Assembly: GCA_020850315.1 (NCBI GenBank)
Contig: JADZEY010000101.1
Span: 1 to 39,755, forward strand
Reading direction: 5' to 3'
Origin: Armatimonadota bacterium
Lineage (GTDB): Bacteria; Bacteroidota; Ignavibacteria; OLB7
Length of the DNA: 39,755 nt
The notes under the pieces were generated by a model. That model ran no database searches and was not told the DNA's origin. It saw only the letters and a program-made list of their open reading frames with translations. The translations under genes and the position numbers were made by a program. Below, in pieces: positions 4,852-33,673 of this stretch (positions are counted from its first letter, which is position 1; every line of letters begins with the position of its first letter).

Positions 4852-4893
4852 GCTTGGAGCTTGGAGCTTGGAGCTTGGAGCTTGGAGCTTGGA
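4852..4893. repeat. Heptamer array (GCTTGGA) x6
   Basis: Six perfect head-to-tail copies of GCTTGGA in the spacer between the cysteine-rich cargo gene and the acylase gene. The rest of this spacer (4808-5097) shows no gene. Confidence 0.95.
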
Positions 4894-13401: not shown

Positions 13402-13422
13402 GGGTAGTGGTTAGTTGTTTGT

Positions 13423-13450
13423 GGTCAGTGGTCAGTGGTCAGTGGTCAGT
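13423..13450. repeat. Heptamer array (GGTCAGT) x4
   Basis: Four perfect copies of GGTCAGT followed by GGCAAAGG. The same heptamer and flanking word occur at 22358-22408 and, inverted, at 33578-33616. Confidence 0.95.
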
Positions 13451-13467
13451 GGCAAAGGAAAGATATT

Positions 13468-13509
13468 TGGTCATTAGTCATTAGTCATTGGTCATTGGTC
13501 ATTAGTCAC
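13468..13509. repeat. Heptamer array (TGGTCAT/TAGTCAT/TAGTCAC) x6
   Basis: Six 7-bp units with R at position 2: TGGTCAT, TAGTCAT, TAGTCAT, TGGTCAT, TGGTCAT, TAGTCAC. The last unit runs into CTCACC, the left end of composite repeat copy 1. Confidence 0.95.
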
Positions 13510-13746
13510 TCACCCACCGTAGGCAGAGTTTGGAGAGTGAAGACTTGCCGGCCCGCTGGCTTGCTTCGATGCTCTTCTTCTGTTCGGCTTTGGCTCCCTC
13601 TCCCACCCGACCAATGGAGTGGAAATAGTAGCATCACCTGTTTGGGAGAGGGCGCGCCGATAGAATCGGCATCTTCGAGGGGTGAGGGCTGGCAGCGAAT
13701 GCGCTTGCCTTCGACCATATCCAGCTTGGCTTTGCGTAAGGTGAGT
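13507..13746. repeat. MITE-like composite repeat, copy 1
   Basis: A non-coding block with a partner at 22427-22660. The left end reads CACTCACCC, slightly diverged. The right end TTTGCGTAAGGTGAGT (13731-13746) is the exact reverse complement of the left end of copy 2. Shared internal blocks include CTGGCTTGCTTCGA, then a ~75-base block from TCGGCTTTGGCTCCCTCTCCC through GGGAGAGGG, then GGGTGAGGGCTGGCAGCGAA. CCCTCTCCC and GGGAGAGGG form a long-loop inverted repeat. Copy 1 has about 24 extra bases, including GCCGAT-AGA-ATCGGC, between the last two blocks. Confidence 0.75.
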
Positions 13747-13910
13747 TAGTCATTGGTCATTAGCAAAGAGTCAGTGCCTTATTCTTCATTCTCCATTCTC
13801 GTGACTCCGCTCAACCCTTCGGCAACGTTCAGGACAGGCTTCGATGCAAGCAGATGCTGGATTCGGTTGCTCACCGAATCCAGCATTTCTCACTCGACAT
13901 TCGCCATTCA

Positions 13911-16667
13911 TCACTTCGCCACTGTGACCATCCCGCTGCTGATGTTACCGTCGGCGTTCAGGCGGTACAGATAGGTTCCATCGGGAAGAGCCGCAAGGTT
14001 GTGGTTGACGATGTGATCGCCAGCAGACAGCGTGCCGTTGTAGAGTGTGGAGATGACTTCGCCGCGAAGGTTCACAACGTCAACCGTGACGTGGGTGGGG
14101 CGTTGCAGTGTGAAGCCAATCTGCCCGCTTCCGGTTGTTGGGTTTGGCCAACTGCGCAACCCGCGAACCGCCGAAGCTGGCGCGTCAGGAGCCGACAGTG
14201 GAGCCTCGTGCCAGATGCCGAAATAGAACGATGCCTTTGCCCCAGCGTTGGTGAATGTTCCGCTGAAATAGATGTCGTTGCCGATAGCGATCATCCCACG
14301 CACGGTTCCGTTCACGCCGCTTCCTAACGGCCGCCACTGGTTGCCATCCCAGCGGGCAACGTTCGACGCGCTATCCCCTCCGGCAAGCGAGAAGTAGCCA
14401 CCAGCGTACAAGTCCGGGCCGCGCCACGCCATTGCATTCACGTAGGGAGCAAAGTGTCCGCCAATGCCGCTGCCCAAGCCGAACCAATGTTTCTGTTCGA
14501 TATTCCAAACAGCGATATGGCGAAGCGATTGCAATCCCGAAGCGGTGAAATCGCCGCCGGCGTGCAGGTAGTTTCCACGGGCAGAAAGGATGAAGACGGT
14601 TTCGTTCAAGCCACTATCAAGCGGGGTCCAGGTGGTTCCATCCCAGCGGGCAACGTTGCTGGCTGGTTGGCCACCGGCGCGCAGAAATCGCCCGCCAGCG
14701 TACAGGGTTCCGGCATCGTCCATCGTCAGCGAAAGCACTACTCCATCAATGCCCGCGCCCAGTTTGGACCATGTTTTGTTGGTCAAATCCCACACGGCAA
14801 CGTTCTGGGCCAGGGTGGTTCCGGCGGTGTCGAACAATCCGCCAACGTACAGCTTATCACCCTTGATAACCATGGAGGAGATGAATGCAATGGTTGGCGC
14901 GTTCACTCCGGTTCCCAGCAGCGACCAATCGTTGGAGGTTTTGTTCCAACGGACGATGTTGTTTGCTGCCAAGCCGTTCCCGGAGCGGAAGGAGCCGGCG
15001 ATATAGAGGTCGTCCCCGTGCCCGATCATGGAATAGACCGGGCCGGTGACAGTGCCGGAAAGATTGGACCAGACGTTGCCATTCAACGCGGCGATGTTCA
15101 CATCCAATGGATTCCCGGTTGCGCCGGCGCGGAATTTCCCGCTTGCATAAATATCCTCGCCAAAACGGGCAATGGTTGTCACCGTTCCGTTGCTGTTGTT
15201 GTTGAAAGGGAACCATCGCCCGGCGGAGTAGCGCGCCACCCGCGCCGATGGCTCGCCACCAGCCGTGGTGAAGCTGCCGGCCACAAACACGTCGTCCCCT
15301 TTTAAGGCGATTGCGTTGACGAATCCATCGGTCCCCGCACGCGAACCGTAGCCAAGCGTTTGCCACCAGATGTTCGATTCGGGAAGCTCATTCCAGACCG
15401 CAACGTAGCCGCAATAGACCCGGTTCAGGGTGTACTGGCCCGGGAAGACCGATTGAAACGTCCCCGACACATAGACCTTGCGCCCGCTGACAACGATGGA
15501 GCGGACAATGCCGTTCACGCCGTCGTCCTCGCGGAACGGGGCGATAGAGTCCCACAGTTGATAGACCCCAGTGACCGGGGTCCAGCGGATGGAGTCTTCT
15601 TCCCAACGGGCAATGTTCTTTGCGCCGCTATCGCCAGCCATCGAGAAACTTCCGCCAACAAACAGGGTGTCCCCCATCACGCCAATGGCGTTGACGAAGC
15701 CGTTGACTCCGTTCCCCAACGATGACCAATTCGCCCCATCCCAGCGGGCAATCCCGCTTGCGGAGACCGAGCCAACCGAGCTGAAGTTCCCACCGATGAA
15801 AATTTTCGACTTTAACGCTGCAATGGTATTCACCGTTCCGTTCACGCCGCTTCCCGGGTCCCCCACTGCCGACCAACGTTTCTGCGAAAGGCTCCAGGCG
15901 GCAATGTTCTTCACTGGCGTTCCGTTGGCATCGTTGAAGCTGCCGCCGGCATAAACCAGCGTATCCTTCACCAGAATGGCCCCAACAAATGCTTGCTCAT
16001 CTCCCCCTAATCCCACTTGGCTTGGGCCAAACGGTCCCATCCCGGCCCACACCCGTTGGGCGATGGAGTACTGGGCGATGTTCTTCACCGGAACCCCGCC
16101 AGCCATGGAAAACTTCCCACCGACGTACAAGATTTCGCTCCGGAGAGCAAGGGAATAGACGAAGCCATTGGTTCCATTCAGCGGGCCGTCGCCAAGCGAT
16201 TGCCATGCCGAGCCATCCCAACGGGCAATGTAGTTCAGTGTTCTGGAGCCAGCCTGGGTGAACGCCCCGCCAACAAACAGCCAGTTGTTGAACACTACTG
16301 CGGCAAACACTTCATCGTTTAGCCCCCCTTGGTCGGCGGCTTGGCCGAATCGGTCGTCCCACTGCTCGTCCCCCGGCTTGCTGGCAGCGGCGGCCACGCC
16401 AAGCGTGCCATCGGCTTGCACAAAACGTGGGCGGCCGTAGTGGTCCACCGTCATCCGCCACCCTTTCGGGTCTAGTGTCCCTTGGATACCCAAAGTGAGG
16501 TTGACGGTTCCATCGGGATTCAGTATTCGCTCCAGCGGGATTCGCTCCTGGCCTTGTTGGATGTCGTCGCCGAACTCAGTCGGCAGCACTTGCGCGAAAA
16601 GCGGGTTGAACAACGCGCCAACTGCCAAAATCAGAAACAATGGTAGAAGTCGTAGCATAGGTTTCAT
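13911..16667 (-). CDS. T9SS cargo, 14-repeat beta-propeller-like protein, paralogue 1
   Basis: A 918-residue exported protein. A signal peptide (about residues 1-25, ending LFAQ) is followed by a module (about 41-108) with the pattern DGTVNL...GTLDPKGW...GRPRF...W-D-D-R-F, shared with paralogue 2. Residues ~120-820 hold 14 repeats of about 50 residues. The pattern is [LIV]-[YF]-[VA]-[GSA]-G-x-F-x-x-A-G, then N-I-A-x-W-x-x-x-x-W-x-x-L-G-x-G-x-N-G-x-V. These resemble delta-60/Rax2-type propeller repeats, and 14 units would suit two seven-bladed propellers. The C-terminus (from ~845, WPNPTTG to VTVAK) is a T9SS type A sorting domain. No catalytic motif is seen, so surface adhesion or binding is a guess. 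It lies 61 bases downstream of paralogue 2 on the same strand. Confidence 0.85.
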   Translation of the reverse strand: MKPMLRLLPLFLILAVGALFNPLFAQVLPTEFGDDIQQGQERIPLERILNPDGTVNLTLGIQGTLDPKGWRMTVDHYGRPRFVQADGTLGVAAAASKPGDEQWDDRFGQAADQGGLNDEVFAAVVFNNWLFVGGAFTQAGSRTLNYIARWDGSAWQSLGDGPLNGTNGFVYSLALRSEILYVGGKFSMAGGVPVKNIAQYSIAQRVWAGMGPFGPSQVGLGGDEQAFVGAILVKDTLVYAGGSFNDANGTPVKNIAAWSLSQKRWSAVGDPGSGVNGTVNTIAALKSKIFIGGNFSSVGSVSASGIARWDGANWSSLGNGVNGFVNAIGVMGDTLFVGGSFSMAGDSGAKNIARWEEDSIRWTPVTGVYQLWDSIAPFREDDGVNGIVRSIVVSGRKVYVSGTFQSVFPGQYTLNRVYCGYVAVWNELPESNIWWQTLGYGSRAGTDGFVNAIALKGDDVFVAGSFTTAGGEPSARVARYSAGRWFPFNNNSNGTVTTIARFGEDIYASGKFRAGATGNPLDVNIAALNGNVWSNLSGTVTGPVYSMIGHGDDLYIAGSFRSGNGLAANNIVRWNKTSNDWSLLGTGVNAPTIAFISSMVIKGDKLYVGGLFDTAGTTLAQNVAVWDLTNKTWSKLGAGIDGVVLSLTMDDAGTLYAGGRFLRAGGQPASNVARWDGTTWTPLDSGLNETVFILSARGNYLHAGGDFTASGLQSLRHIAVWNIEQKHWFGLGSGIGGHFAPYVNAMAWRGPDLYAGGYFSLAGGDSASNVARWDGNQWRPLGSGVNGTVRGMIAIGNDIYFSGTFTNAGAKASFYFGIWHEAPLSAPDAPASAVRGLRSWPNPTTGSGQIGFTLQRPTHVTVDVVNLRGEVISTLYNGTLSAGDHIVNHNLAALPDGTYLYRLNADGNISSGMVTVAK

Positions 16668-16728
16668 GGCTGAAAGGGTTATTGGTTTGCTGTGTTATAG
16701 AGTTCAAATGTTGAGTTGAGGGGTACCG

Positions 16729-19416
16729 TTACTTGGCAATCATCACCGGGATTGATTGCACTTGGCCTTCCATCAGAATGCGGCAGAAATAGAGTCCGGC
16801 TGGAAGCTGGGTTGCATCCCACAGCTGGGTTTGCGATTCTTCCACATGAAGCGTGGCGGCTGCCTGTTCGCCGCGCATATTCAGCAGCTGAAGCATGGCG
16901 GGGCGGGGGAAGAATCCGCGAAGATGAAGTTGCCCGGAGGCACGGTTGAAGTAGATCGTCTGGTTGCTGGTTTCCGTTGCTGGGCTTGGGGCATCGGCAG
17001 CGGAGATCATTCCCGGTAGCCCTTTGAACCAGCGCCCGATGTTGTAGGAAGGGTGGGTTCCGGCAAGGGTGAACTCACCCCCGGCATAGACCTCCGGCCC
17101 GGTGCTTCCAATGGCGCGGACCACAATCTCACCGTTGCCAACCCGGCCAACTCCGCTTCCTAAGCTGCTCCAGGCCGAACCATCCCAGCGTCCAATCCGC
17201 GAAAGGACTTGGTTGCCGCCAAGATTGAAACTGCCGCCAACGTAGATGCCATCGTTGGCGGTGTCAATGGCGTACACTTTCCCGTTGACCCCGCCGCCAA
17301 CATCACGCCAAGCATTGTTCTGCCAAATGGCGATGTTCTTCACGGGGGTTGCGCCGGCAATGGTGAAATCGCCGCCAACCACCACCTGGCCATCGTTGGT
17401 GATTTGAATGGCATAGACGGAGTTGTTCACCCCGTTTTGATTTCCTGTGCCCAAGATATTCCATTTGTTGCCATCCCACCGCGCAATGTTCTTGGCATTG
17501 ACGTTCCCGGCAGTGGGGAACACGCCACCAACATAAACGTTGTCGGCATCGGCAGCAATGGCTTGGGCAAAGGTGTAGAAACTGCTTCCGCCAAGCCCGT
17601 TGCCAAGTGGGGACCAGGTTTGTGCGGCCTGATCCCACCGTGCCACACGGTTGGCGCGATTCCCACCAGCAAGGTCGAACTGGCCGCCAACAAATACCTC
17701 GTTATTGCGGACCGCCACGGCAAACACTTTGGAGGCGGAATCATACGTGCCACCTTGGTAGTTGTAGCCAATCCCTTCCTTCATCGAACGCCAAACGCCG
17801 CCGTTCCAGTGGGCGATGTTGTGCGATTCCACGCTGCCAGCGCGGTCGAATCGCCCGCCAACGTACACGTCGCGCCCGTTCACATCAATGGCATAGACCA
17901 CCGGGGTGGAGCCAGTGGTGGTGTCAACCACACCAACGCCAGTACCCAGCGGAGACCACGCACCAGCAAGCCCATTCCATTTTGCCACGGCGTTGGCGCG
18001 GATGTTTCCGGCAATGCTGAACCGCCCGCCAACATACACATCGCGCCCGTTCACGCCGATTGCGTAAATCGGTCCGTTCACCCCTTCGCCAACGCTGATA
18101 TCGAAGCTCCCCCAGGTGCGTGTGGCAAGGTTCCAGAATGCTGCTCCGTACGCCCCCAGGCTTCCGGCACGGGTGAATTTCCCGACCATGTACACGTTCG
18201 TTCCGCCGATCACAACATCGTAGGCATCGTTGTTCAATCCAATGTCTTCTGATTTCCCCAGCCGCTGCCAGCCCCCAGCTTCCCAGACGGCGATGCGGTT
18301 CACGGCTTGGGTTCCGGCGTTGCGGAAACGTCCCACGGCAAACACACGCCCGCCGGTGACATCAATCCCGGTGACGCTGCCGCTAAGCCCGCTTCCCATC
18401 GGGTGCCAAGTCCCTTCGATAAGGTCTCGCCGGGCGATGTTGGCTGCCGGGATTGCTCCTGCTTGGGTGAAATTCCCGCCAACGTACAGGTCGTTCCCTT
18501 GGACCGCCACCGCCTCCACAATGCCGTTTGCGCCGCCGCCAACATCGCGCCATGAAGCGGTTGTGGCGTTCCAGTGGGCAAGGTTTTTCAGCCCTACTTG
18601 CCCAGCGCGGGCGAACTTCCCGCCAACGAACAAATCTTGTCCATACAGCGCGATATCGGCCACGAAAATGGTATCGCCGCCAAGCCCTGGGCCCATTGCG
18701 CTCCAGCGGCTGTTCCCCAAATCACAGCGTGCAATCGGGCCGGTGGTAAGGCTTCCGCTCACCAGAAATCTGCCGCCGGCAAACAGTGTGTTCCCATCAA
18801 CGGCCAACGTTAGGACGGTGTCGCCAGCGCGGCCCAATCCGGGGCCAAGTGCCACCCAATCCAGCCCAGTCCAGCGGGCCACGTTGGTTGCTTCCTTTGT
18901 TCCGGCGGAGTCGAATGCGCCGCCAACGTACACATCTTCGCCGTTGACCACGATTGCGGTGACGGCTGCATTGCGTGCGTCGGCGCGAACTCCATCGCCA
19001 AGCGTGAACCACTGGCGGCCATCCCAGCGGGCGATGTTGTTGGCAATGATATCGCCAATAAACGTGAACCGCCCGCCGATGTACACATCCTGGCAGCCGC
19101 TGATTGCCACGGTGTAGATTGTGCCGCCGGCCCCACCGATGTTGAATCGTTCATCCCAGTAAACATCATCCGGGTGCGCGGCCAGAAGAGAAGGGGAGGA
19201 GTGAGTTTTTTGGAAACGGGGGGAGCCGTCGGGGGCAAGGGTCAGCTGCCAACCGGTGGGGTCAAGTTGGCCACGGAACTGGGTGGAAAGATTCAGCGAG
19301 CCATCCTCCCGAAGCAGCTCGGCCAACGGGCGGGTGGCAATGGTGCGCGCTGGCTCCTGTGCCAGCAGTGAAACCGCGCCACCAACCAACAGAACGATGG
19401 AGAGAAGAAAACGCAT
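16729..19416 (-). CDS. T9SS cargo, 14-repeat beta-propeller-like protein, paralogue 2
   Basis: An 895-residue paralogue of the gene that follows it. Signal peptide about residues 1-20 (ending LLAQ). The N-terminal module at ~35-91 (REDGSLNL, GQLDPTGW, DGSPRF, YWDERF) matches paralogue 1. Fourteen repeats follow between about residues 95 and 790, several nearly identical (VYVGGRFSIAG, VYVGGRFDRAG, LYVGGNFTQAG). The C-terminal ~75 residues look like a T9SS sorting domain (LPAGLYFCRI, ending PVMIAK), but the usual PNP motif is not obvious at its start. The gene is probably transcribed with paralogue 1, given the 61-base gap without a terminator-like hairpin. Function unknown. Confidence 0.83.
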   Translation of the reverse strand: MRFLLSIVLLVGGAVSLLAQEPARTIATRPLAELLREDGSLNLSTQFRGQLDPTGWQLTLAPDGSPRFQKTHSSPSLLAAHPDDVYWDERFNIGGAGGTIYTVAISGCQDVYIGGRFTFIGDIIANNIARWDGRQWFTLGDGVRADARNAAVTAIVVNGEDVYVGGAFDSAGTKEATNVARWTGLDWVALGPGLGRAGDTVLTLAVDGNTLFAGGRFLVSGSLTTGPIARCDLGNSRWSAMGPGLGGDTIFVADIALYGQDLFVGGKFARAGQVGLKNLAHWNATTASWRDVGGGANGIVEAVAVQGNDLYVGGNFTQAGAIPAANIARRDLIEGTWHPMGSGLSGSVTGIDVTGGRVFAVGRFRNAGTQAVNRIAVWEAGGWQRLGKSEDIGLNNDAYDVVIGGTNVYMVGKFTRAGSLGAYGAAFWNLATRTWGSFDISVGEGVNGPIYAIGVNGRDVYVGGRFSIAGNIRANAVAKWNGLAGAWSPLGTGVGVVDTTTGSTPVVYAIDVNGRDVYVGGRFDRAGSVESHNIAHWNGGVWRSMKEGIGYNYQGGTYDSASKVFAVAVRNNEVFVGGQFDLAGGNRANRVARWDQAAQTWSPLGNGLGGSSFYTFAQAIAADADNVYVGGVFPTAGNVNAKNIARWDGNKWNILGTGNQNGVNNSVYAIQITNDGQVVVGGDFTIAGATPVKNIAIWQNNAWRDVGGGVNGKVYAIDTANDGIYVGGSFNLGGNQVLSRIGRWDGSAWSSLGSGVGRVGNGEIVVRAIGSTGPEVYAGGEFTLAGTHPSYNIGRWFKGLPGMISAADAPSPATETSNQTIYFNRASGQLHLRGFFPRPAMLQLLNMRGEQAAATLHVEESQTQLWDATQLPAGLYFCRILMEGQVQSIPVMIAK

Positions 19417-19522
19417 GGGTATTAACTCAGATGTGAACGTAACAGTTGGGTTATGTTTTTTGGGGGATGCCGAGAACTTCGCCTGAGAGCTACAGTATCC
19501 GGTTGTTCAGCAAATCCAGCCC

Positions 19523-19557
19523 TCCGCTCATGCTTCGACGGGCTCGGCATGAGCGGA
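19523..19557. repeat. REP-like palindrome, copy E
   Basis: Perfect 11-bp inverted repeat TCCGCTCATGC (19523-19533) and GCATGAGCGGA (19547-19557) around TTCGACGGGCTCG. It sits between paralogues 2 and 3 and could act as a transcription-slowing or mRNA-stabilising hairpin. The sequence family recurs at 205-246, 22243-22276 and 22474-22502. Confidence 0.85.
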
Positions 19558-19580
19558 TGCTCTATTCGGTCTAATTTTCC

Positions 19581-22001
19581 TTACTCCCCCACCACAATTT
19601 TCTCCGTCCGAATTTCCCCACCGATGTTGGCCACACAAAGGTAGATGCCAGTGGGAAGAGTGGAAAGGAGGAGGGGGAAGGTGTGAGTTCCGGGGAGGAG
19701 TTCACCAGTGAAAATGGAGTTGGAAATATTTCCTGCGGAGTTCACCAGATGAATGGTTGCGTTACTTGCGGAGGTGGTTTGCAATCGCAAGAACGCTTGG
19801 CCAGACGCTGGGTTTGGGGTGATGCTGAAGGATGTAGCAGATGGTTCGGCGGCGGTTCCGCTGGGGCCGGTTAGCCGTGTCCAGCGGGCAACATGGTTGC
19901 TTGGTTTGAAGCCTGCAATCGAGAAATCCCCGCCGGCATACAATGCGTTGTTGGTTGCCCCAATGGCATAGACGGTTGGAAGCGAACCACTTAGCCCTGT
20001 TCCCAGCGTGGTCCAGGTTTCGCCATCCCAAACCGCGATGTAGTTGGCGGGGCGGCCACCGGCAAGGCTGAACTCACCCCCAACATACAGCCCGCCACGT
20101 GCCGGGGTCAGTGCGCGGACTGAGGTTCCGGCCCCACCTTCAGCAACGCCGCCAGCCATCGGAAGCCACCCGCCCCCGCCAAAGCGGGCAACGCCATTGA
20201 CGATCATCTCACCCGAGCTGCGGAAACTTCCGCCAGCGTACAGGTCGCCAAGAAAAAGGGTGAGGGCATAGACGGCGGAATCGAATCCGGAGCCAACTTG
20301 GTTCCAGCTGTTTCCATCCCAGCCCGCAATGTGTGCTGTCGGGGTTCCGCCAGCGTTGGTGAACTGGCCGCCGGCATAGACTTCGCCCGTGGCCCGAACG
20401 GCAATGGCGTTCACTGCGCTGTTGAAACCGCTTCCCATCGCCGACCAGTTGCCGGTGGCGATATCCCAGCGGGCAATGTTTTCGGCATTCACCCTTCCGG
20501 CACGGCTGAAGTTTCCGCCAACGTACAGGGTGGTTCCATCGGTGGCAAGTGCGCGGACGATTCCGGTTGTTCCGCCGCCAACATCATGCCACGTCTGGGT
20601 TGCGACATCGAACCACGCAACGTTTGGGGAGTAGATATTTCCTGCATACGTAAAATCCCCCCCCACGTAGATTCGGCCACCGTGCACAAGCACAGCATGG
20701 ACGGGGCCATCAAGCCCTGTGGTAAGGGGTTGCCATTCGGTTCCGTTCCACTGGCCGATGTAGCCTATCATTTGGTTTCCGGCCACCGTGAATCGGCCAC
20801 CAGCAACGATGGTGTTCCCCAACGGAGCAATGGCGTAGATATGATCGTTGGTTCCGTTGTTGACCTGGTTGCGGAAGGAACTCCACGTGGTTCCATCCCA
20901 CGCGGCCAAGTAATCAACCGGGGTGGAGTCGGCAAGGGTGAACGCGCCGCCAACACAGATTCGTTCGTCGCAAGGGGCAATGGCATAGACCGTGTCGTTC
21001 ACGCCGTTGCCAACGTGGCTCCATGTTCCGTTGGTTCCTAACTGGGCGATGTAGCGGGCGGGGCGGTTCCCCGCCACTGTGAATCGTCCGCCAGCGTAGA
21101 GTGTGAATCCGTTGTTGGCAAGGGTATAAACCCGATCGTTCACGCCGCCGGAAACTGCACGCCAGCCGGGGTTCCGAAGGTTCCATTGGGCGATGTAGAG
21201 TATCAGTTCATCGTCGGCACGGATGAACAATCCGCCAGCATAGAGGTTGTCGCCAATCACAGCAAGGGCGCGGACTTCTTGATCCATCCCTTTCCCAAAC
21301 CCTGACCATTCCCCGGTGGAGTGCCGCCAGCGCGCCACCATCGAAGCTGGTTGATTGCCAGCTTGGGTGAAGTTCCCGCCAACGAATAGTTCATCGCCGT
21401 TCAGGACAATGGAATAGACAGTTCCATTAACGCCATCGCCCACCGGATGCCATGTTCCGGTGCGGGCATCGTAGCGGGCAATGTTCCGTGCGGCAACGTC
21501 GCCCGCCTTGCTGAAACGCCCGCCAACATACACATCGCTGCCGTTGACAACGATGGAGTTGATGGTGGTGGCCACGCCACCGCTAACGCCACCGGATAGC
21601 GGCAACCATCCCCCACCATCCCAGCGGGCAATGCGCGCTGCGGCAACGCCATCAATCGTTGTGAAGTTCCCGCCAGCATACACCTCGACCCCGTTTGCCG
21701 CAAGCGCAAGGATGGAGCCGTTCGCGCTGCTGTTGGCCCCGCTTCCCAGGATTGACCAGCTTCCGTTGTTCCACGCCGCCACGTAGTTGGTTTGCCCGAT
21801 TTCGCTGGCGAACTGCCCCGCCACGTAGGTGTTGCAGGCGTTGTTGGCAATGGCAAGCACAAGCCCACCCACGCCGTTCCAGCTGAAATTCCCATCCCAA
21901 AATTGATTGTCTTCGCCGGGCTGCGCGGCCGCCGGGCGGTGGAAAGCCAGCAGCACGAAGGCACACAGAATGATGCGGGGAAACGGTACGGTATGGTTCA
22001 T
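19581..22001 (-). CDS. T9SS cargo, 14-repeat beta-propeller-like protein, paralogue 3
   Basis: An 806-residue exported protein of the same repeat family. ATG 22001 is chosen because it opens a signal peptide (about residues 1-27, ending PAAAQ); the frame stays open further upstream without resembling protein. It lacks the N-terminal DGxxNL...LDPxGW module of the other two and begins its first repeat soon after the signal peptide (QFWDGNFSWNGVGG). There are again exactly 14 G-G-x-F-type repeat cores, from TYVAGQF to LYAGGDF. The C-terminus from ITPNPASG to IVVGE is a T9SS type A sorting domain. A palindrome-containing gap of 164 bases separates it from paralogue 2. Upstream, a 15-bp unit is tandemly duplicated at 22016-22045. 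Confidence 0.83.
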   Translation of the reverse strand: MNHTVPFPRIILCAFVLLAFHRPAAAQPGEDNQFWDGNFSWNGVGGLVLAIANNACNTYVAGQFASEIGQTNYVAAWNNGSWSILGSGANSSANGSILALAANGVEVYAGGNFTTIDGVAAARIARWDGGGWLPLSGGVSGGVATTINSIVVNGSDVYVGGRFSKAGDVAARNIARYDARTGTWHPVGDGVNGTVYSIVLNGDELFVGGNFTQAGNQPASMVARWRHSTGEWSGFGKGMDQEVRALAVIGDNLYAGGLFIRADDELILYIAQWNLRNPGWRAVSGGVNDRVYTLANNGFTLYAGGRFTVAGNRPARYIAQLGTNGTWSHVGNGVNDTVYAIAPCDERICVGGAFTLADSTPVDYLAAWDGTTWSSFRNQVNNGTNDHIYAIAPLGNTIVAGGRFTVAGNQMIGYIGQWNGTEWQPLTTGLDGPVHAVLVHGGRIYVGGDFTYAGNIYSPNVAWFDVATQTWHDVGGGTTGIVRALATDGTTLYVGGNFSRAGRVNAENIARWDIATGNWSAMGSGFNSAVNAIAVRATGEVYAGGQFTNAGGTPTAHIAGWDGNSWNQVGSGFDSAVYALTLFLGDLYAGGSFRSSGEMIVNGVARFGGGGWLPMAGGVAEGGAGTSVRALTPARGGLYVGGEFSLAGGRPANYIAVWDGETWTTLGTGLSGSLPTVYAIGATNNALYAGGDFSIAGFKPSNHVARWTRLTGPSGTAAEPSATSFSITPNPASGQAFLRLQTTSASNATIHLVNSAGNISNSIFTGELLPGTHTFPLLLSTLPTGIYLCVANIGGEIRTEKIVVGE

Positions 22002-22015
22002 CAGATGCAAGGCGA

Positions 22016-22045
22016 TTGACACTGGGAAGTTTGACACTGGGAAGT
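22016..22045. repeat. 15-bp tandem duplication
   Basis: TTGACACTGGGAAGT occurs twice head to tail, 15-44 bases upstream of the paralogue 3 start codon, so it lies in the leader or promoter of that gene. Confidence 0.9.
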
Positions 22046-22242
22046 TTGCCGCAGTCTTGAAAGTGTACGGAAGGAATTGGGAAGAAATATAGCACCATTC
22101 GGGCATGGTGAAACTACGCCAACGTAAGGACTTTTTTCCCGCAAAGGAAGACCCTGAAGCTGGTGGAAGGGTTACAGGAATGATGAATGACGAATGCAGG
22201 ATAGCGAAGAGAGGAGAGCGGGGAAGAGCTTGCTCGGTGGCT

Positions 22243-22276
22243 CCGCTCATGCTTCGGCGATACTGGGCATGAGCGG
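22243..22276. repeat. REP-like palindrome, copy F
   Basis: CCGCTCATGC (22243-22252) and GCATGAGCGG (22267-22276) form a perfect 10-bp inverted repeat around a 14-base loop. GAGCTTGCTC just upstream (near 22227) matches words of copies A and C. Confidence 0.85.
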
Positions 22277-22357
22277 GGGCTGGGTTCGGTGGCGAGAGAG
22301 GGAGGGCGCAGGGTGAGGGGCTGCGGCGGATTCCTAACTGACCTTCCGCAACGCCAA

Positions 22358-22428
22358 GGTCAGTGGTCAGTGGTCAGTGGTCAGTGGTCAGTGGTCAGTT
22401 GCAAAGAGGGTCATTGGTCATTAGTCAC
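22358..22428. repeat. Heptamer arrays (GGTCAGT) x6 and (GGTCAT-type) x3
   Basis: Six perfect GGTCAGT units (22358-22399), then TGCAAAGA, then three units GGGTCAT, TGGTCAT, TAGTCAC (22408-22428) running into the left end of composite repeat copy 2. The order is the same as at 13423-13509. Confidence 0.93.
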
Positions 22429-22660
22429 TCACCTTACGCAAAACTTGGATAGTGCACACTTGCTCGTTCACTGGCTTGCTTCGACAAGCTCAGCATGAGC
22501 GGAGGGTGATGTCCGCTGGAACAGCGAAGCATCGAAATCCCTTCTCGGCTTTGGCTCCCTCTCCCGCCCGACCAATGGAGTGGAAATAGTAGCATCACCC
22601 GCTTGGGAGAGGGCCGGGGTGAGGGCTGGCAGCGAACGAGGGCAGAGGTGCGTAAGGTCA
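22427..22660. repeat. MITE-like composite repeat, copy 2
   Basis: The left end is ACTCACCTTACGCAAA (22427-22442). The right end TGCGTAAGGTCA (22649-22660) is its near-perfect inverse. The internal blocks match copy 1 at 13507-13746, including the ~75-base block with CCCTCTCCC...GGGAGAGGG. A REP-like word with GCTTG-CTTCGA-CAAGC (22474-22489) and CAGCATGAGCGG lies inside it. The right end supplies the TGA stop codon (22658-22660, minus strand) of the neighbouring gene. Confidence 0.75.
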
Positions 22661-23275
22661 ATACTTCAGCATTGCCCACCGAACCCGCAGCCCGGCAATC
22701 ACCGAGCCGATGGGGCGGTCGGTGAATTCAATAAACTTGACCTCGGCACCAACCCCTAATCGCTCGGAATACTGCCACGTGTAGCCCGCGCCGAACGTAT
22801 ATCCTATCTCCCAACTTTCACTGTGAATCTGCTCACCGTTCGCTGCCTTCCCGTCCAGCCGTAACAGTATCATCCCGATTCCACCGCTTAGGTCAATCCC
22901 ATATTTCTCCATTGCAATCACCCCCATTACTGGCAACGAAACCAAGGAGATATTTGCCGAACCTTGCCGTAAGGCTTCGTTTTTGGCGCGTATTCCCGAT
23001 ACTGGTAGATAGCTGATATCCAACCCAACATGCATCAGATGCTCCGGGCACCACAATGCCCGAAGCGAGCCGCTACCGCCGCCGCTGGTTTCCTCAAGCT
23101 CTGGAAGTTCAGGCGGCGGGCTGCTGCTGATTCGGAAGCCGTAGCCGCCAGTAACATCAATAGAAAGTCGGTAGTCGGTTGGTTGTGCAAGCAATCCGCT
23201 GGTGCCAAGCACTATTGCAACCACCATGGCAACCAGTACTCCGCAACGGGTGTGCCGAGCTATGAAGTTTTTCAT
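22658..23275 (-). CDS. Putative outer-membrane beta-barrel protein, unknown function
   Basis: A 205-residue exported protein that I do not recognise. The signal peptide spans about residues 1-31 (ending GLLAQ). The mature part alternates polar and hydrophobic residues with glycine-aromatic ends of strands (TGGYGFRI, HVGLDISYLPV, WEIGYTFGAGYTW, VIAGLRVRWAMLKY), as expected of a small 8-strand outer-membrane barrel. It is the last gene of a three-gene operon, starting 5 bases after the glycerophosphodiesterase stop codon. Its stop codon lies inside the end of a composite repeat, so the C-terminus may have been changed by that insertion. Confidence 0.7.
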   Translation of the reverse strand: MKNFIARHTRCGVLVAMVVAIVLGTSGLLAQPTDYRLSIDVTGGYGFRISSSPPPELPELEETSGGGSGSLRALWCPEHLMHVGLDISYLPVSGIRAKNEALRQGSANISLVSLPVMGVIAMEKYGIDLSGGIGMILLRLDGKAANGEQIHSESWEIGYTFGAGYTWQYSERLGVGAEVKFIEFTDRPIGSVIAGLRVRWAMLKY

Positions 23276-33498: not shown

Positions 33499-33673
33499 GG
33501 GAATGTCGAGTGTCGAGTGTCGAATAAAAGAGAATGGAGAATGGAGAATGGAGAATGGAGAATGGAGAATGGAGAATACCTCTTTGCTACTGACCACTGA
33601 CCACTGACCACTGACCAACTCCCCCGATTCACTATGTTTGCCGTTGTTCAACGTAGCATAATTATAGAGATAG
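33499..33673. repeat. Composite of three heptamer arrays between two divergent genes
   Basis: Between the cysteine desulfurase and coaE start codons lie GTCGAGT x3 (33505-33525, last unit GTCGAAT) and GGAGAAT x7 (33529-33577, first unit degenerate). These are followed by ACCTCTTTGCT and then ACTGACC x4 (33589-33616). ACTGACC is the reverse complement of GGTCAGT at 13423 and 22358, and CTCTTTGC is the reverse complement of the same GCAAAGAG flank. Promoters of both genes must coexist with these arrays. Confidence 0.95.

Follow-up and report, generated by a model that had tools for sequence, protein, structure and literature searches.

Both MITEs of insertion sequences (IS) and the ISAba11 group of IS elements are already known. 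MITEAba12 and similar bacterial MITEs (PMC6382973) are mobilised in trans and, like the repeats analysed here, are short and non-coding, share only their terminal inverted repeats with an IS, and have target site duplications (TSDs). However, MITEAba12 belongs to another IS family and has a 9-bp TSD, and composites carrying arrays are not reported in the text of that source examined here. In the ISAba11 group, the Polaromonas H6N copy has a 13-bp end, CTSACCTTACGCA, which is identical to the MITE end of this study, while the Acinetobacter copy and other Polaromonas copies end in CTGATGTTACGCA; the transposase is 50% identical. The direct repeat of ISAba11 was published as 5 bp (PMC7885321), whereas 7 bp was found here and in three plasmid copies of the group. 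The exact TSDs of the plasmid copies are TTATTTA (Acinetobacter), TTACTAA (the Polaromonas copy with the identical end), and TATTTAA (Polaromonas CJ2). Two of these three fit the pattern T.A.T.A, while TATTTAA departs from it at position 3. When the flanks of the Acinetobacter copy were joined with one heptamer, plasmids matched at 100% over all 486 bp, and thus represent the empty site. Unlike these IS elements, the elements of the window have no transposase, are 110–350 bp long with unrelated interiors, and lie in heptamer arrays.

Why bacteria have an excess of heptameric repeats is a puzzle already noted in the literature (PMC4692102). TAACTGA, an intergenic 7-bp direct repeat, was described in Bacteroidetes, Cyanobacteria, and Beggiatoaceae by MacGregor (2015, PMC4679880), who named transposon excision as a possible source of arrays but did not report transposon ends. 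TAACTGA conforms to T.A.T.A and is the same as the sequence in which target and end meet at ISAba11-type ends (TAA+CTGA), a likeness that is suggestive only. ISAba11-group MITEs, a 7-bp duplication, and array-carrying composites were not found in the open-licence literature searched, and the end sequence, searched in the text of papers, gave unrelated matches only among the matches listed.

Results

Two related repeats in the window

The window, the whole stretch of 39,755 nucleotides analysed here, is contig C101 of a genome of 4.24 Mb (138 contigs, 99.84% complete). The original prediction placed two copies of a MITE-like repeat with matching inverted ends at 13507–13746 and 22427–22660, and proposed a search for further copies, target duplications, empty sites, and a transposase with the same ends. 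The MITE reading was borne out: there are 76 BLAST pieces and 125 exact ends in the genome, the copy boundaries fall at the inverted ends (13 conserved positions followed by an abrupt loss), the target duplication is present and is 7 bp long, one empty site exists in a sister genome, and relatives have a transposase with the same ends, of which the window's own genome has a decayed one. Judged from sequence comparison, the repeats are very probably MITEs, non-autonomous DNA transposons that belong to the ISAba11 group (IS701 family), moved in trans and accumulating in arrays.

All the sequences quoted in the original prediction are present in the window. TTTGCGTAAGGTGAGT at 13731–13746 is indeed the exact reverse complement of 22427–22442, and it has four matches in the window at three or fewer mismatches, compared with 0.28 expected by chance. 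7-bp arrays precede both copies, as had been described. A near-identical block of about 75 bases had been claimed; the block exists, but it is 70 bp long at 96% identity (query 119–188; window 13584–13653). Both repeats are real, but their boundaries had to be corrected to those in Table 1, with an additional outer boundary at 22338. The earlier description missed the 7-bp length of the duplication, the likeness of the target to the flanking arrays, and the ability of composites to use the outer ends.

Table 1. Positions of the two MITE copies and their associated parts in the window
Feature	Position	Strand	Remarks
Heptamer arrays (GGTCAGT)n and (GTCATTR)n flanking copy 1	13406..13508	+	
Left flanking heptamer TTAGTCA, target/TSD	13502..13508	+	Last array unit; same as 13746-13752
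Copy 1, 237-bp non-coding MITE	13509..13745	+	Left end degenerate, CTCACCCACCGTAGGCA; right end TGCGTAAGGTGAG intact
Right flanking heptamer TTAGTCA of copy 1	13746..13752	+	
Outer left end of copy-2 composite, CTGACCTTCCGCA	22338..22350	+	1 mismatch to family end
AAGGTCAG, mirror end of collapsed mini-element			After CTGACCTTCCGCA (22338..22350, +)
(GGTCAGT)6 array within copy-2 composite	22358..22399	+	
Heptamers GGTCATT/AGTCA	22409..22427	+	Stop exactly at inner end
Copy 2, 234-bp non-coding MITE	22428..22661	+	Ends CTCACCTTACGCA / TGCGTAAGGTCAA
Whole copy-2 composite (array module + MITE)	22338..22661	+	Flanks TTCCTAA / TACTTCA unmatched

Copy 1 is set within a (TTAGTCA)n array, and its TSD is therefore uninformative. 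Copy 2 makes up the inner portion of a composite with heptamer arrays and a second end, and its left side has the same architecture as the other composites of the genome. No matching TSD was found for copy 2, with TTAGTCA (inner) or TTCCTAA (outer) on the left and TACTTCA on the right; since the flanks of the composite differ, no TSD is demonstrable and the insertion history is unreadable at copy 2. The interior of the window type contains a hairpin, CCCTCTCCC/GGGAGAGGG.

The terminal bases of copy 2 supply the TGA stop codon of a minus-strand gene at 22658–23275 (window 22650–22668), and thus the insertion sets the C-terminus of the gene product. Between the MITE copies, at 13911–22250, three large paralogous genes lie side by side (918, 895, and 889 aa); they have Rax2/Kelch beta-propeller matches, and two of the three have weak matches to Por secretion tails. 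Near the contig start, a 95-bp tandem duplication at 326–516, almost perfect at 95% identity, overlaps predicted ORFs. The best protein relatives of a penicillin amidase encoded in the window are from Chlorobiota/Bacteroidetes MAGs (56–58% identity), which places the host in that group. An RNA family search of the window found only a tRNA.

A multicopy family with 13-bp ends

The 76 BLAST pieces were obtained with copy 2 as the query. The 125 exact genome matches of CTSACCTTACGCA compare with none for the reversed pattern; when up to two mismatches were allowed, there were 376 matches, compared with 106 for the reversed control. The terminal inverted repeat is 13 bp long, with conservation dropping sharply at position 14. 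Paired ends are mostly 110–350 bp apart, and elements with an exact TSD are 114–351 bp in length; the elements are short, gene-less, and multicopy, as MITEs are. Several unrelated interiors were found between the ends: the type of the window (CTCTCCC...GGGAGAGGG hairpin), a second type with CCCCATTGGCAGCGTG, and a third with GAGCCAAGCTGGAGCTTGG. Some copies (on contigs C127, C34, and C24) have tandem inner units inside one end pair. In other genera (L202–L220), the same 13-bp ends surround common interspersed palindromes, such as those with GTCATTCCCGC, CACGAAGACAC, and GGCTTTAGCC. Since the same ends enclose these palindromes, the MITE interior may be a freely exchangeable cargo.

Target duplication and an empty site

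Overlapping candidate pairs were merged into 45 independent groups for counting TSDs. An exact 7-bp TSD was found in 18 of the 45 groups, while 2000 permutations gave a mean of 1.5 and a maximum of 6. Flanks alike at six or more of the seven bases were found in 31 groups (permutation mean 6.4, maximum 15, again in 2000 permutations). The right flanks were shuffled among elements in these permutations, and thus the common target consensus was controlled for. The TSD does not extend further, as the eighth base is duplicated in only four of the 18 groups with an exact TSD. The target consensus is T-T/G-A-C/G-T-A/C-A, which fits T.A.T.A. At two loci with atypical targets (L088, ATAGTAA; L005, TTACTAC), positions 1 and 7 are duplicated too. 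Thus, the TSD length is 7, not 5.

The sister genome G001 was examined at eight loci for sites lacking the element, and an alignment across the site was obtained at locus L022 only. There, CTACTAA is present once in G001, compared with TTACTGA-element-TTACTGA in the window's genome. At five loci (L099, L028, L055, L088, and L023), no copy of the element was visible in G001, with the intergenic DNA diverged or occupied by other repeats, and matches were limited to separated flanks at L021 and L048.

Autonomous elements with the same ends

Exact matches to the target plus the end were found in 31 of the 391 class genomes, in 23 genera, with none for the control. In several of the 31 carrier genomes, the end is found where contigs terminate, a pattern that a longer, collapsed repeat would give. 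In G172, G103, G110, and G285, many contig ends have a family end only some tens of bases away, which points to an unassembled multicopy IS of the ISAba11 group. An autonomous IS was found in G172 (L257:1438-2623). It is 1186 bp long (1.19 kb) and encodes a 361-aa DDE transposase, P0001, which matches NCBIfam NF049921 IS701_2 (E 4.5e-97) above the cut-off, as do PF01609, PF13546, and PF04693. D77, D174, and E283 of the transposase are invariant in the group alignment, and a Cyanobacterium homologue carries the annotation 'group ISAba11 transposase'. The ends are common to the MITEs and the autonomous elements L257 and L307. L257 is the sole complete IS in the class with both ends, and its flanks, TTACTAA and TGATTAA, agree at only five of seven positions. 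Behind the same end, G365 has a transposase that is 49% identical, G390 has fragments, and the complete genome G179 has a truncated transposase gene.

Contig C9 of the window's own genome carries a decayed transposase fragment, 90–400 bp inward from an end, CTGACCTCACGCA. The relic consists of TATGLSALFDGNISHDTV and a 91-residue stretch with 29% identity. No intact ISAba11-group transposase gene was found in this genome, nor was any PF01609 match; the gene may have been lost or not binned. An IS1595 transposase (PF12762) had no match in five carrier genomes. Viral contigs gave five isolated end matches and no intact IS.

Heptamer arrays and composites

A perfect T.A.T.A heptamer flanks 68 of 129 distinct ends, compared with a background of 0.15%. 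An in-phase heptamer repeat adjoins 45 of the 129 ends (35%), compared with a background of 2.0%, although this excess is partly inflated by copies of one composite. Because of this difference from the background, the arrays look like preferred targets and insertion hot spots. Other period-7 arrays of the window (4852–4893 and 33504–33617) have the unrelated units GCTTGGA (six copies), TGTCGAG (three), GAGAATG (seven), and ACTGACC (four), with a spacer, CCTCTTTGC, between two of the arrays and no family ends there. Five genomes of the class (G097, G148, G217, G262, and G338) have dozens of T.A.T.A-type array matches and almost none for the control pattern, that is, T.A.T.A read backwards.

A composite consists of a MITE, heptamers (TGACTAA, TGACCAA, and others), the spacer CCTCTTTGCAA, an array of ACTGACC units, and a collapsed mini-element that ends in TGCGTAAGGTCAG. 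Exact 7-bp TSDs are present at the outer ends of seven composites (L009, L040, L048, L055, L084, L085, and L100), whereas their inner pairs agree at only three to six of seven positions. Since the outer duplications are exact, it appears that composites can move as units.

Discussion

Are the repeats REP- or BIME-like palindromes, which either recombination or a tyrosine (Y1) transposase of the REP-associated kind would spread without target duplication? Their intergenic location, the hairpin, and the tandem internal units at some loci would agree with this. However, exact 7-bp duplications far above the permutation level refute it, and the long matching terminal inverted repeats and an autonomous DDE IS with the same ends also speak against it, so that this explanation is practically untenable. 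It is also very improbable that some other transposase recognises the ends and that the nearby ISAba11-group genes are coincidental. The lack of an intact ISAba11-group gene in the window's genome might be cited for it, but genes of this group are directly bounded by the same 13-bp ends in Polaromonas as well as in several genera, the TSD length and the target agree too, and the relic in the genome itself lies behind the same end.

The origin of the arrays and of the composites may be considered in the same way. The arrays might have been made by the element through repeated insertion and excision, each leaving a 7-bp duplication. The array period equals the TSD length, the units TTAGTCA and TGACTAA fit the target, and ACTGACC corresponds to the final base of the target followed by bases 1–6 of the end. 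The arrays also adjoin the ends in phase, and period 7 dominates among periods 4–12 (22 arrays of at least three copies in 440 kb, compared with 0–2 for each other period). On the other hand, most arrays of the genome have off-target units (TGAAGAA, GAATGGA, and GCTTGGA) with no end nearby. Runs of four T.A.T.A heptamers occur in 109 of 382 genomes of the class, but they are most numerous in genomes without family ends, and in many of the 382 genomes they are no commoner than the control heptamers, which often outnumber them. Since the arrays do not track the carriers class-wide, the duplications are probably not their source, and the arrays look like independent targets rather than footprints of the element; production of the arrays by the element is improbable. 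As for the composites, homologous recombination between heptamer arrays or shared ends, instead of transposition with swapped ends, could set an end beside a MITE, as both arrays and ends are repeats, and the module is in fact joined to different MITE interiors. This route is unlikely, since in the seven composites it is the outer ends alone that have exact TSDs, which is what insertion of the whole composite would produce.

I therefore favour the ISAba11-group MITE explanation, with the following course of events. The 13-bp ends would have been bound in trans by a DDE transposase of the ISAba11 group, which has since decayed or is missing from the recovered genome; this enzyme would have moved the MITEs, cutting targets with a 7-bp stagger. 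The TTAGTCA-like tandem arrays would present rows of near-ideal targets, and for this reason the elements may have built up there. Because one end resembles another, mobilisation could take in a MITE along with the next end on the far side of an array, giving composites that carry target heptamers, of which copy 2 would be one. I infer that the composites form by this choice of ends.

The ISAba11 group would thereby gain a set of MITEs, and the 7-bp duplication replaces the reported 5-bp one. With the T.A.T.A target and the 13-bp end defined, copies are easy to find across phyla. The tempting idea of transposon-made arrays was tested and is unsupported class-wide; the heptamer arrays, abundant in bacteria and without explanation (PMC4692102), appear here as insertion hot spots. 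It is possible, though doubtful, that the MITEs have captured arrays of their own target heptamers beside an end as mobile landing pads, into which siblings insert and from which new combinations leave as composites. If this is true, it would represent a self-assembling modular MITE system across many genera.
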